Assembly (NCBI GenBank): GCA_018896645.1
Contig: JAHIMF010000079.1
Span: forward strand, 1-35,314
DNA length: 35,314 bases
Source: Patescibacteria group bacterium
Lineage (GTDB): Bacteria > Patescibacteriota > Patescibacteriia > UBA2591 > JABMQE01
Direction: 5' to 3'
A model generated the notes under the pieces. That model did not search any database and was not told where the DNA came from. It worked only from the letters and a program-made list of their open reading frames with translations. The position numbers and the translations under genes are program-made. Positions 1,105 to 33,210 of the stretch are shown piece by piece (within the stretch, counting starts at the first letter, position 1; each line of letters begins with the position of its first letter).

Positions 1105-4032
1105 ATGCCTATCCCTTCACTCCGCCCAAAGCCCAGAAAAAATAACTGGCGCTACAAACCTTTAGGCGGTGTTCGGCCAGCGTATTCGCCTCAAGCCTGG
1201 CGAAGCAAAAAATATAGACCCAGAAGAAAACAAGGCCTTGCATTGAGGTTGATTAAAGTGATTGTTCCGGCTGGTATTTTAGCTGGGCTTTTTAGTATTG
1301 TTTTTGTGGTCAGTTTATTCGCCTGGTATGGCAGAGACTTGCCTGACCCTGATAAGCTTTTAGAACGGTCTATTGCTCAAAGCACTACTATTTATGACCG
1401 GACTGGGGAAAATATTTTATACGAAGTTCACGGCGAGGAGCGAAGGACTATGGTAGAACTGGAAGAAATTCCCGAATATTTAGTTTGGGCCACGATTGTG
1501 GCTGAAGACCGCCAGTTTTACGAACACTCGGGATTTAATCTGCGCCGCATCATTATTACGGCTGTTAAAGATATCTTCACTGGCCAGCGCGCTGGCGCCT
1601 CCACCATTACCCAGCAATTTGTTAAGAACGCTATCCTTACACCCGAGAAAAGATATTCCCGAAAAATTAAAGAACTGATTCTTTCTTACCAAATTGAAAA
1701 CAAATTTACCAAAGACCAAATTTTAAAAATGTATTTTAATGAGATTCCTTATGGCTCAACCGCTTATGGCATTGAAGCCGCCAGCCAAATTTATTTAGGC
1801 AAAAGTGTTTCGGAATTAAGTTTAGCCGAAGCCGCCACCATAGCTGGCCTGCCGCAAGCGCCAACATATTACTATAACCATCAAGACGCATTGCAAGGAA
1901 GAAGGGATTATATTTTAGATAGCTTGGCAGAGTTTGGCTATATCACCCAGGAAGACGCCGAGCTTGCCAAAGAAGAGCCCCTAAAACTTGAACAGCGGAA
2001 AGAGGCTTTAGTAGCACCCCATTTTGTGATGTATGTTAAAGAATTATTAAGCCAACGTTATGGCGAACGTTTGGTGGAGAGCGGGGGTTTAAATATCCAA
2101 ACAACCCTTGATATAGAAAAACAAGAAGCGGCCGAAGCCGCTGTTGAAGAAAGGGCCCTAAATAATGAAACTGATTATGGAGCAATGAACGCCGCTTTGG
2201 TGGCGTTGGACCCTAAAACCGGCGATATTTTAGCCATGGTTGGTTCTCGTGATTTTTATAATGAAGATATTGATGGCCAGGTTAATGTTACTACCAGCCC
2301 TCGCCAGCCTGGTTCGTCTTTCAAGCCAATCGTTTATGCGGCTTCGTTCATCAAGGGATATACTCCAAAAACTATTCTTTGGGATGTAGTAACAACCTTT
2401 AAAACAGAGGTTGGCGAAGACTACACTCCGCATAATTATGACAACAAAGAGCACGGTCCAATAACCATGCGCAAAGCCCTGGCTGGTTCGCTTAATATCC
2501 CGGCGGTTAAAACCATCTATCTGACCGGTATTAGCAAAGTCCTGGATTTGGCTGACGCTCTTGGTTATACCACGCTTTATGACCGCAGTCGTTTCGGCCT
2601 TTCTTTGGTGCTGGGCGGAGGCGAGGTTAAGCTCTTGGAGCATGTGGCTGCTTATGGCGCTTTGAGTCAAGAGGGAATTATCCAAACCCCCAGAGCAGTT
2701 TTAAAAGTTACTGATAGCAATGGCGAGATATTGGAAGAAGCTGATGAAGAACCAACAGGAGAGCGGGCAATGGACCCGGAAATTTGCCGCTTGGTTAGCA
2801 ATATTTTATCGGATAACGAAGCCCGGGCTTTTACTTTTGGCTCTAGTAATTATCTTAATCTGGGTGAACGGCCGGTGGCGGCTAAAACCGGCACTACTAA
2901 TGATTATAAGGATGCTTGGGCTGTTGGTTATGCGCCATCACTGGTTGCTGGTGTCTGGGTTGGGAATAATGACAACAAAGAAATGAAGCGAGGCGCGGCT
3001 GGCGGTGTCGTGGCTGCGCCAATTTGGCATCATTTTATGCAAGCCGCGCTTCGGGGCAGCCCGATAGAACAGTTTGCCGTTCCCGCAGAAATTAAGGCGG
3101 AAAAGCCAGTACTGCGAGGTGAGACGGGCAGTGAAGTAACAGCTAAAATTGATAAAGCGAGCAATAAATTAGCCAGTTCCTCAACACCCCCAGAGTTGGT
3201 TGAAGAAAGAGCTTTTAAAGAAATGCATTCCATCTTGCATTATGTTGATAAAAATGATCCTCAAGGGCCAGTTCCCAAAGACCCAACCCAAGATTCTTAT
3301 TATGAACCTTGGGAACAGGCGATTCTAGAATTTTTAGCCCGGGAAAAAGAAAAACGCGAAGCTGGCGATGAGAAGGCTTTTGCGTATGATGCCTTGCCAA
3401 CCGAGGAAGATGATGTTCACACCCTGGAGAATATTCCCATCGTTTCTATCATTTCTCCCTTGCCGGGTAAAATTTTTACTACTAATATCTTAACAGCCAG
3501 GATTTCTGCTGATGTTCCCAGGGGCGAGATTAGTAAAGTAGAATATTGGATTGATAGCGAGCTTTTCGCTGCTGAAGAAAAGTCGCCGTATAATTTAGAA
3601 AAAACAATACTATCCACATCTGATGGCAAACATACTTTAATAGCTAAAGTTTATGATGACGTTTTAAATATGGGCGAAGCCAGGGTGGACTTTAATATAG
3701 ATTTGATTGATATCGCGCCAGCAATTAATTGGCTTTATCCTAAAACGGATATTATTCTGGGCGCAAACAATTTTCCTCTTAATTTAAGCATCAGTATTCC
3801 TAATCCGGACCAACAACGGATTGGTGTAGTTAGATTAAAATTTTTCTACCAAGCCGAGACCAGTTCCCAATCTCGATTATTGGGTCTGGTGACGGACCCT
3901 GAAGATTTTGATAAGATTGAACTCGCTTGGCCCAGCGCTCCCGGTTCTGGTATTTATAATGTTTATGTGGAAGCAGAGGATTATAAAGGCGAGGTTTATA
4001 GAAGTGAAGTGAGGCGAGTGGAAGTGGAGTGA
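1105..4032 (+). CDS. Class A penicillin-binding protein (PBP1A-like) with C-terminal Ig-like domains
   Basis: A bifunctional peptidoglycan synthase that polymerises glycan strands and cross-links the peptides. Order of parts: a basic cytoplasmic N-terminus (1-45), one membrane segment (about 47-74), and a GT51 glycosyltransferase with catalytic Glu134 in AEDRQFYEH and GASTITQQ at 164-171. A transpeptidase domain follows with SSFK (Ser404-Lys407), SLN (462-464) and KTGTT (594-598). After about residue 775 come one or two beta-rich Ig-like segments (775-870 and 873-975). At 975 aa it is longer than many family members because of these additions, which probably sit outside the membrane. All active-site motifs are intact. 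There is no clear ribosome-binding site (TTTTTAAATATCT before the ATG). A bidirectional terminator follows. Confidence 0.95.
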   Translation: MPIPSLRPKPRKNNWRYKPLGGVRPAYSPQAWRSKKYRPRRKQGLALRLIKVIVPAGILAGLFSIVFVVSLFAWYGRDLPDPDKLLERSIAQSTTIYDRTGENILYEVHGEERRTMVELEEIPEYLVWATIVAEDRQFYEHSGFNLRRIIITAVKDIFTGQRAGASTITQQFVKNAILTPEKRYSRKIKELILSYQIENKFTKDQILKMYFNEIPYGSTAYGIEAASQIYLGKSVSELSLAEAATIAGLPQAPTYYYNHQDALQGRRDYILDSLAEFGYITQEDAELAKEEPLKLEQRKEALVAPHFVMYVKELLSQRYGERLVESGGLNIQTTLDIEKQEAAEAAVEERALNNETDYGAMNAALVALDPKTGDILAMVGSRDFYNEDIDGQVNVTTSPRQPGSSFKPIVYAASFIKGYTPKTILWDVVTTFKTEVGEDYTPHNYDNKEHGPITMRKALAGSLNIPAVKTIYLTGISKVLDLADALGYTTLYDRSRFGLSLVLGGGEVKLLEHVAAYGALSQEGIIQTPRAVLKVTDSNGEILEEADEEPTGERAMDPEICRLVSNILSDNEARAFTFGSSNYLNLGERPVAAKTGTTNDYKDAWAVGYAPSLVAGVWVGNNDNKEMKRGAAGGVVAAPIWHHFMQAALRGSPIEQFAVPAEIKAEKPVLRGETGSEVTAKIDKASNKLASSSTPPELVEERAFKEMHSILHYVDKNDPQGPVPKDPTQDSYYEPWEQAILEFLAREKEKREAGDEKAFAYDALPTEEDDVHTLENIPIVSIISPLPGKIFTTNILTARISADVPRGEISKVEYWIDSELFAAEEKSPYNLEKTILSTSDGKHTLIAKVYDDVLNMGEARVDFNIDLIDIAPAINWLYPKTDIILGANNFPLNLSISIPNPDQQRIGVVRLKFFYQAETSSQSRLLGLVTDPEDFDKIELAWPSAPGSGIYNVYVEAEDYKGEVYRSEVRRVEVE

Positions 4033-4056
4033 ATAAATCCAAAATCTAAAATCCAA

Positions 4057-4265
4057 AAATAAAAAGGCCTACTCCTTGAAAGTTTAGAGTAGGTTTTTTG
4101 TTTTCTATACAAAAATAAAAAGAAGGCGGCCAAGGCAAAGTGATGAGCAAATAAAAGCTCTGTTTATCAGGATAAATTTGGCAGCCTGGTTATTGCATAG
4201 ATACAGACATCAGCCCGCAGCCATACCCCCGTTGACTACCAAATTTATTCTAACAAACTTTTTGA
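4057..4265 (-). ncRNA. Candidate structured non-coding RNA (unassigned)
   Basis: Between the penicillin-binding protein gene and rpsP there is no ORF, but there is a near-perfect promoter and a long helix. On the minus strand, 4258-4250 pairs with 4170-4162 (9 bp including G-U), then a 1x1 mismatch (4249/4171), then 4248-4236 pairs with 4184-4172 (13 bp). This gives 22 pairs closing a 51-nt apical region (4235-4185) rich in G. A small hairpin (GAGC/GCTC, 4160-4145) follows, then the shared terminator at 4093-4068. The length of about 205 nt and the long double-stranded body recall 6S RNA, but I cannot match 6S consensus features. I see no SRP RNA, RNase P or tmRNA motifs. It could also be a 3'-end processing structure of rpsP mRNA. 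Confidence 0.6.
4068..4099. terminator. Bidirectional intrinsic terminator
   Basis: CCTACTC (4068-4074) pairs with GAGTAGG (4087-4093). A T-run follows on the plus strand (4094-4099) and an A-run precedes it (4055-4065), giving T-runs in both directions. It ends the penicillin-binding protein transcript rightward and the candidate RNA leftward. Confidence 0.85.
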
Positions 4266-4271
4266 TACTTT

Positions 4272-4300
4272 ATTATATCACAAATAAAAAAATATGTCAA
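4272..4300 (-). promoter_or_regulatory. Consensus sigma-70-like promoter for the candidate ncRNA
   Basis: Read on the minus strand: TTGACA (4300-4295), 17-base spacer, TATAAT (4277-4272). Both boxes are perfect consensus. The expected start is near 4265, just outside the long helix. No ORF begins downstream. Confidence 0.75.
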
Positions 4301-4368
4301 ACGTTTGGCATATTCCAGTCGCCCACTCGGCTATGAGCTCGTGGCCGAATGGTCGCAAGGACAAAGGA

Positions 4369-4842
4369 TTACCCCGCTTTTTCTTCTTTCGGCTTTTCTT
4401 TTTCTTCAGATTTCTCTTTTTCAGCAGGCTTTTCCTCTGGTTTAGCTTGCTCGGAGTTCTTATCTTCAGCTGTTTCCGCCTGTTTGGCGGATAAATTTTC
4501 TTCTGTTTTTTGGGTTTCAGCTGATTTCTCGGCTTTTTCAGCAGCGCCAACGGCTTTATCGTCTTTTGTTTCTTTCTTTTTGGGTTTCCAGGCTTTTACT
4601 TTTTTAGCCTCAATCACTCCTTCTTTTACTAAAAGGTTATGTACAGTATCAGAGGTTCCTGCGCCGCAAGAAAGCCAATATTTGATTCTATCAGCTTTTA
4701 AAACCGTTTTTTTAGTTCTCGGATTGTAATGGCCCAAATTTTCTAAAAAATCACCAAAAGTATCTTTGGTTTTTTCATTGATGATTAAACGGTAATAAGG
4801 TTGTTTCTTTTTACCTATTCTTGCGAATCTGATGGTTAGCAT
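4369..4842 (-). CDS. rpsP: Ribosomal protein bS16 with long Lys/Glu/Ala-rich tail
   Basis: Small-subunit ribosomal protein that binds 16S rRNA during 30S assembly. The N-terminal 85 or so residues are a standard bS16 (MLTIRFARIGKKKQPYYRL start, then DFLENLGHYNPR and VKEGVIEAKKVKAW). The protein is 157 aa, while the family is usually 75-100. The extra 65-70 residues from about 88 onward are low-complexity Lys, Glu, Ala and Pro, probably disordered. The leader upstream (4843-4995) is one of the word-repeat palindromes and shows no ribosome-binding site. A consensus promoter and candidate ncRNA lie downstream on the same strand. Confidence 0.95.
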   Translation of the reverse strand: MLTIRFARIGKKKQPYYRLIINEKTKDTFGDFLENLGHYNPRTKKTVLKADRIKYWLSCGAGTSDTVHNLLVKEGVIEAKKVKAWKPKKKETKDDKAVGAAEKAEKSAETQKTEENLSAKQAETAEDKNSEQAKPEEKPAEKEKSEEKEKPKEEKAG

Positions 4843-10876: not shown

Positions 10877-11566
10877 ATGAAGGATTTTTCTTCTTTAGAA
10901 AAAAAACTTGGTGTTAAATTTAAAAATCAGGATTTATTAAAGCAAGCCCTTGTTCATCGGTCTTATTTAAATGAAAATTCCGGTTTTAAATTAAGCCATA
11001 ATGAACGTTTGGAATTTTTGGGTGATGCTGTTTTGGAGCTAGTGGTGACCGAGCATTTATATAAAAAATATCCTAATCCCGAAGGAGAACTGACCAATTG
11101 GCGAGCCAGTTTGGTCAATTCTAACATGTTAGCCGAATTGGCTCAAGAAGTGAAGTTAGAAGAATACTTATACCTTTCCCGGGGGGAGACCAAAGATAAA
11201 AATTCAAAAGCCAGGCAGTATATTCTAGCCAATGCTTTTGAGGCTTTGATTGGCTCGATTTATCTGGATCAAAGAATGGGGGCGGTAAAGAAATTTATCA
11301 CAGAAAAGTTGATTTCAAAGTTAGATAATATTTTGGAAAATCAGCTGTATCTTGATCCCAAAACACGATTCCAAGAAGCGGCCCAGGAAAAAATTGGAGT
11401 TACCCCGTTTTATAAAGTGATTAAGGAGTCCGGGCCAGACCATGCTAAACGATTTATTATTGGTGTATTTTTAGAAGATAAAATGATAGCCGAAGGCGAA
11501 GGTATGTCTAAGCAAGAAGCCCAAGTTGATGCGGCGCAAAGGGCATTGGAAAAGAAGAAATGGTGA
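10877..11566 (+). CDS. rnc: Ribonuclease III
   Basis: Cuts double-stranded RNA in rRNA maturation and mRNA control. The 229-aa protein has the endonuclease domain with signature HNERLEFLGDAVLEL (41-55; metal ligands Glu47 and Asp51 region) and LANAFEALIGSIYLD (117-131). A C-terminal dsRNA-binding domain (about 160-227) ends KQEAQVDAAQRALEKK. One oddity: in the second motif the usual catalytic Asp is Asn119 (LANAFEALIG), while Glu122 is kept. It has its own -10 and a structured leader. A terminator-like stem (about 11630-11660) followed by T-runs lies downstream. Confidence 0.95.
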   Translation: MKDFSSLEKKLGVKFKNQDLLKQALVHRSYLNENSGFKLSHNERLEFLGDAVLELVVTEHLYKKYPNPEGELTNWRASLVNSNMLAELAQEVKLEEYLYLSRGETKDKNSKARQYILANAFEALIGSIYLDQRMGAVKKFITEKLISKLDNILENQLYLDPKTRFQEAAQEKIGVTPFYKVIKESGPDHAKRFIIGVFLEDKMIAEGEGMSKQEAQVDAAQRALEKKKW

Positions 11567-33000: not shown

Positions 33001-33210
33001 GTCATCCCGAGCGAAGCCCCATTTCTCTGTCATTCCGACCGAAGCGACCCGCAGGGAGCGAAGTGGAGGAATCCCGACGATATCCTGTGGACGCTGTTGT
33101 GTTCCCATGTCCACGGTACATCCACGGGATTCCTCCACTCCCTCGTCCTCACTGCGGTTCGTCCTCGGTCGGTCGGAATGACAGAGAAATGGGGCTTCGG
33201 TCGAGATGAC
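33001..33210. repeat. Large imperfect palindrome (210 bases)
   Basis: 33001-33042 is the inverse of 33169-33210 with two mismatches; a second pair of arms (GGAGGAATCCCG about 33065-33076 against CGGGATTCCTCC about 33125-33136) lies inside. The sequence is of the GTCATTCCGAGCGAAG-type family of palindromic elements scattered in many bacterial genomes. GC-richer than neighbours. No ORF of significance, although readable frames cross it. Confidence 0.85.

Follow-up and report, generated by a model that had tools for sequence, protein, structure and literature searches.

The 6S RNA is laid out as a closing stem, a large central bulge and an apical stem, and the known pRNAs carry GG at positions 4/5 or 5/6 (PMC8414754). 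Base-pairing small RNAs (sRNAs) encoded between genes have a stable 5' hairpin, a pyrimidine-rich segment that is left unpaired and an intrinsic terminator. In the open-licence literature, no report of 6S RNA or of another regulatory small RNA was found for the ultra-small bacteria to which the present host belongs, a group that is mostly uncultured and poorly studied. The DNA analysed here, referred to as the window, is a stretch of 35,314 nucleotides and corresponds to contig C79 of a 1.33-Mb Patescibacteria (candidate phyla radiation) genome that is 96% complete. Judged by its SMC protein, the nearest named relative is a Candidatus Kerfeldbacteria genome, at 50% identity. The genomes used for comparison comprised one from the same family (G001), 24 from the same order and none from the same genus.

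Between rpsP and a convergent gene for a penicillin-binding protein (PBP), the window contains a candidate small-RNA gene on the minus strand. The first-pass annotation had proposed a stand-alone structured RNA with a strong promoter of its own at this place, and the promoter, helix and terminator described below support that proposal. The coordinates of the features are collected in Table 1, together with those of the khpA leaders of this and related genomes.

Table 1. Features of the candidate small-RNA locus, its neighbours and the khpA leaders of relatives.
Feature	Position	Strand	Basis
Predicted small-RNA transcript, ~205-209 nt	4057..4265	-	predicted from promoter and terminator; start placed ~7 nt after the -10 box
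Long helix, 5' arm	4234..4258	-	fold, inverted repeat
Long helix, 3' arm	4162..4186	-	fold, inverted repeat
47-nt apex: small internal bubble and 13-pair apical hairpin (4195-4226) with UGAU loop	4187..4233	-	fold
Predicted sigma-70-type promoter, perfect TTGACA-17-TATAAT with extended -10 (TGATATAAT)	4272..4300	-	motif match; genome-wide pattern count
Predicted bidirectional terminator common to the small RNA and the convergent PBP gene	4057..4104	.	inverted repeat, fold
C/U-rich tail (GCCUUGGCCGCCUUCUUUUUAUUUUU), largely unpaired, candidate base-pairing region	4107..4161	-	predicted pairing probabilities; function inferred
rpsP (ribosomal protein S16), upstream neighbour of the small RNA	4369..4842	-	Pfam PF00886
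PBP with transglycosylase and transpeptidase domains, convergent neighbour	1105..4032	+	Pfam PF00912, PF00905
rpsP terminator-like palindrome (AATATGCCAAACGTTTGACATATT, then a T tract), with the small-RNA -35 box inside	4291..4314	-	fold AUAUG.CAA....UUG.CAUAU then U7; inverted repeat
khpA leaders	L005:1393-1452, L006:1359-1439, L008:1399-1462, L011:1023-1088, L013:1974-2049, L015:1863-1948
khpA leaders, continued	L017:2133-2189, L018:1387-1460, L022:2119-2189, L023:1130-1222, L074:903-961 (own genome)

The promoter element is composed of TTGACA at 4300-4295, a 17-nt spacer and TATAAT at 4277-4272 on the minus strand, with a TG one base before the -10 box. All 12 of the 12 consensus positions matched, as the first-pass annotation had read them. 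The TTGACA forms the final bases of the terminator-like palindrome that directly follows rpsP. The 1.33-Mb genome has 33 perfect matches and G001 has 20, compared with 0 and 1, respectively, for a reversed-pattern control. This excess over the control demonstrates that the pattern is a real promoter consensus in this genome, and the element at 4300-4272 is very probably a real promoter. It had been described as the strongest promoter in the window and as suggesting abundant expression; this holds within the window, where it is the sole perfect match, but 32 other perfect promoters were counted in the genome. Given the 33 perfect matches, the predicted promoter is good rather than exceptional, and ordinary on a genome scale.

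The repeat search located inverted-repeat arms at 4162-4184 and 4236-4258 with 51 nt between them, in agreement with the earlier description of a long helix with one mismatch. The fold extends this helix to 25 positions (24 pairs and one A-C mismatch, 4234-4258 with 4162-4186), which close the 47-nt apex; the helix begins 14 nt past the promoter and ~7 nt past the inferred start. Folding energies were compared with those of shuffled controls. The full 209-nt transcript gave z = -4.8, with 0 of 200 shuffles equally stable, and the 97-nt core hairpin reached -44.6 kcal/mol (z = -7.8), while the best of 1000 dinucleotide shuffles reached -31.2. The opposite strand of the core was far less stable (-19.5 kcal/mol, z = -2.1), because nine of the 39 pairs in the core hairpin are G-U and can form in the minus-strand RNA alone. 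Within the long helix by itself, four G-U pairs against one A-C mismatch are weak evidence; the agreement of the strand bias with the direction of the promoter is the better argument.

At the other end of the locus, the terminator arms (4057-4074 and 4087-4104) are flanked by A/T tracts on both sides, and the element is therefore predicted to work in both directions, which bears out the earlier claim of a terminator common to the convergent gene. With a loop of more than 8, it escaped a simple terminator scan. The transcript was also said to be about 205 nt long and free of open reading frames (ORFs). This agrees with the length predicted from the promoter and terminator, and no convincing ORF was identified; only one frame, of 34 codons and starting with TTG, falls largely within the transcript, and it continues beyond the terminator.

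We tentatively lean towards reading the locus as a stand-alone, lineage-specific orphan small-RNA gene that would act in trans, most likely through its C/U-rich tail on mRNAs. This reading takes the promoter, the strand-specific helix, the terminator, the lack of a convincing ORF and the lack of detectable relatives from the sequence, and it adds transcription, stability and trans action by inference. The strong sigma-70-type promoter, located where the rpsP terminator has its T tract, would make an RNA of ~205 nt, which the long 5' helix may protect and whose 3' end would be set by the terminator common to the PBP gene. The exposed tail could then base-pair with mRNAs, being potentially complementary to ribosome-binding sites of the AAGG type; its unpaired, C/U-rich character suggests pairing at such sites. 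Pairing of the tail with the start regions of 25 window genes was no better than that of shuffled tails (mean z -0.13), and a target search with the tail and apex gave no signal.

The search for relatives of this RNA was extended over several collections. BLAST found the transcript only in its own genome among 97 genomes (its own and 96 relatives). A covariance model built from the single sequence, and weak for that reason, likewise recovered nothing but its own sequence when run on 381 class and 380 phylum genomes, and a covariance search of ~80% of G001 gave nothing credible. With the filters off, the matches of the model were other long hairpins with no common sequence. Phage and plasmid collections returned only short, low-scoring chance matches, and no viral contig patterns were seen. 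The rpsP-PBP neighbourhood is not conserved in the relatives, in which the regions downstream of rpsP and of PBP held other content and no comparable RNA. Conservation of the helix, on which the first-pass annotation had let its proposal depend, was not found, as no homologue emerged from a comparison that included one same-family and no same-genus genome. This outcome is a lack of demonstrable conservation, not an absence of function, and recent origin and fast divergence are not distinguishable because no same-genus genome was in the comparison. One resemblance in the same-family genome, a GGGC-N4-GUCUGU in an apical hairpin at L039 as in the window RNA, was judged to be chance; the architecture differs and an ORF follows.

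Dozens of long intergenic hairpins were detected in 818 kb of G001, a few of them behind good promoters. One of these, at L209 (11291-11396), stands alone behind an 11/12 promoter; its helix spans 25 positions, two of them mismatched, and carries a multi-hairpin apex. Downstream of it lies a terminator-like GC hairpin with a T tract, and the locus (11247-11525) is convergent with a HicA-like ORF. The layout is like that of the window RNA, and the sequence is different and the genomic place unrelated. As this similar layout exists in the sole same-family genome, RNAs of such a layout may recur in the family. Other structured elements were observed in the course of the analysis. Both genera of the family carry, ahead of a DksA/TraR-like gene and at an apparently equivalent position, a perfect promoter with a similar structured RNA (AGAGAA...UUCUCUGGAA...) behind it, at L070 ~870-1020 (own genome, C56) and at L061 566-720 (G001, C127). 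This is a better conserved small-RNA candidate than the window RNA. Hairpins with a common closing stem, CCCCGCACCAA/UUGGUGCGGGG, were also found in both genera, at L078 ~860-1030 (own genome, C88) and at L151 6116-6230 (G001); the one at L078 has a perfect promoter before it and an ORF after it, and the pair is perhaps a conserved leader. At 33060-33141 the window has a complex hairpin with GGAGTGGAGGAATCCCG arms that is very stable on both strands (~-57 kcal/mol with flanks) and differs from the simple-repeat hairpins.

The comparison of relatives also revealed a conserved leader upstream of khpA, which encodes a KH-domain RNA-binding protein. It is usually located between rpsP and khpA, often behind a promoter of the TTGACA/TATAAT type, and consists of a CCAGUC stem, an invariant GGUCG core and GACUGG. 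In the alignment, 88% of cells were paired, against 15-48% when slid, and the shuffle control was not exceeded. The leader is nearly restricted to the order of the host, and autoregulation by KhpA is possible. In G001, a cobalamin-riboswitch-like sequence, recognised by eye, was present after rpsP at L003 (~2080-2270), between rpsP and the next ORF.

Several alternatives to the orphan small-RNA gene have to be weighed. Arms of ~20 positions or more, with no more than two mismatches, are also seen in several further intergenic inverted repeats of the window. Arm length by itself therefore does not set the locus apart, and the element might be a DNA-level inverted repeat (a small mobile element or a simple-repeat hairpin) with no RNA role. 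We give this scant credence. Those repeats are mostly simple sequence, for example TTACTATTTACTA, and pair almost equally on both strands, whereas the locus at 4057-4265 is distinguished by its complex sequence, its strand bias and a promoter that reads the same way. It occurs once in its own genome at E <= 0.001; the window RNA is thus not an insertion-element repeat, and a repeated mobile element (MITE) was rejected. A more serious alternative, which we nevertheless consider unlikely, is that the rpsP-PBP junction was rearranged and the gene once located there disappeared or was carried elsewhere; the locus would then be a vestige, the promoter and leader left by that gene, and would now yield a functionless orphan transcript. 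In many relatives, khpA is driven by a promoter and structured leader located after rpsP, and the window RNA likewise lies directly downstream of rpsP. In the host, khpA follows a DciA-like ORF on a different contig, which indicates that the junction was rearranged, and the lack of detected conservation points the same way. However, the khpA of the host keeps its own promoter and leader, the khpA-leader model did not match at 4000-4300, and the promoter and helix look intact, not decayed. Unlike the khpA leaders, the window RNA has neither the GGUCG core nor the CCAGUC/GACUGG stem, and no khpA lies downstream of it; a displaced khpA leader was rejected on the model search.

The long near-perfect helix and separate apical hairpin would also suit a structured RNA with a protein partner, such as one that sequesters a protein or is an RNase III substrate, in place of a base-pairing one. 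An RNase III-like ORF, read by eye from the sequence, is located in the window at 10877-11566; yet one sequence allows no conserved motif to be defined, and we regard this explanation as quite unlikely. The first-pass annotation was reminded of 6S RNA, and a highly diverged 6S-like RNA, binding the RNA polymerase holoenzyme as a promoter mimic, would share with 6S RNA the length (~200 nt, here ~205 nt), closing stem, internal bubble, apical arm and strong promoter of its own. The role is vacant, as the genome search returned no other 6S RNA. The resemblance proved to be one of outline only. An Rfam scan of the window returned no family at the gathering score and none convincing below it, and RF00013 was unmatched in the window and the whole genome even at E <= 10, with controls found, in line with the earlier failure to match the 6S consensus. 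Since tmRNA was recovered in 6/6 genomes tested, the RNA model search works on these genomes. No 6S above threshold was present in 192 class genomes, with one sub-threshold match of 25.4 bits. The stem-bubble-arm order is present, but the bubble (~7 x 9 nt) is too small and the arm (13 pairs) short, a 3' tail of ~100 nt extends beyond the closing stem, and a pRNA templated by AACGGGG, the 5' strand of the bubble, would be CCCCGUU, which has CCCC and lacks the pRNA GG. The 6S identity was rejected on these grounds, and a highly diverged relative of 6S is improbable. That the RNA represents a new class of abundant structured RNA, family-specific and functionally replacing 6S where no 6S is recognisable, is a long shot. 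The sub-threshold match itself (L231 1501-1602 in G124, same class, another family; GGGAGUCC...GGACACCCACCU) is unrelated to the window RNA and could be contamination or a 6S RNA that is rare in this class.

The bacterial SRP RNA resembles the window RNA in forming one long hairpin, and differs in that its model (RF00169) found no match in six genomes of the order (G000-G005). In the same genomes, in which tmRNA was recovered, no SRP54 GTPase (PF00448) scored above the cut-off, with one sub-cut-off fragment. The SRP RNA identity was therefore rejected, and a missing SRP RNA needs no explaining, since the SRP54 GTPases were undetected too; the order of the host may lack the signal recognition particle altogether.

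As a single RNA without relatives, the proposed orphan small-RNA gene answers no open question as it stands; as a well-supported small-RNA gene, it provides a concrete target for metatranscriptomics. Among known systems, it can be compared with the intergenic base-pairing sRNAs. It differs from these in its unusually long helix, in that no target was found and in that no conservation was shown. It resembles them in the features seen in trans-acting sRNAs, namely a promoter and terminator of its own and no convincing ORF, and in a C/U-rich segment that is predicted to be exposed.
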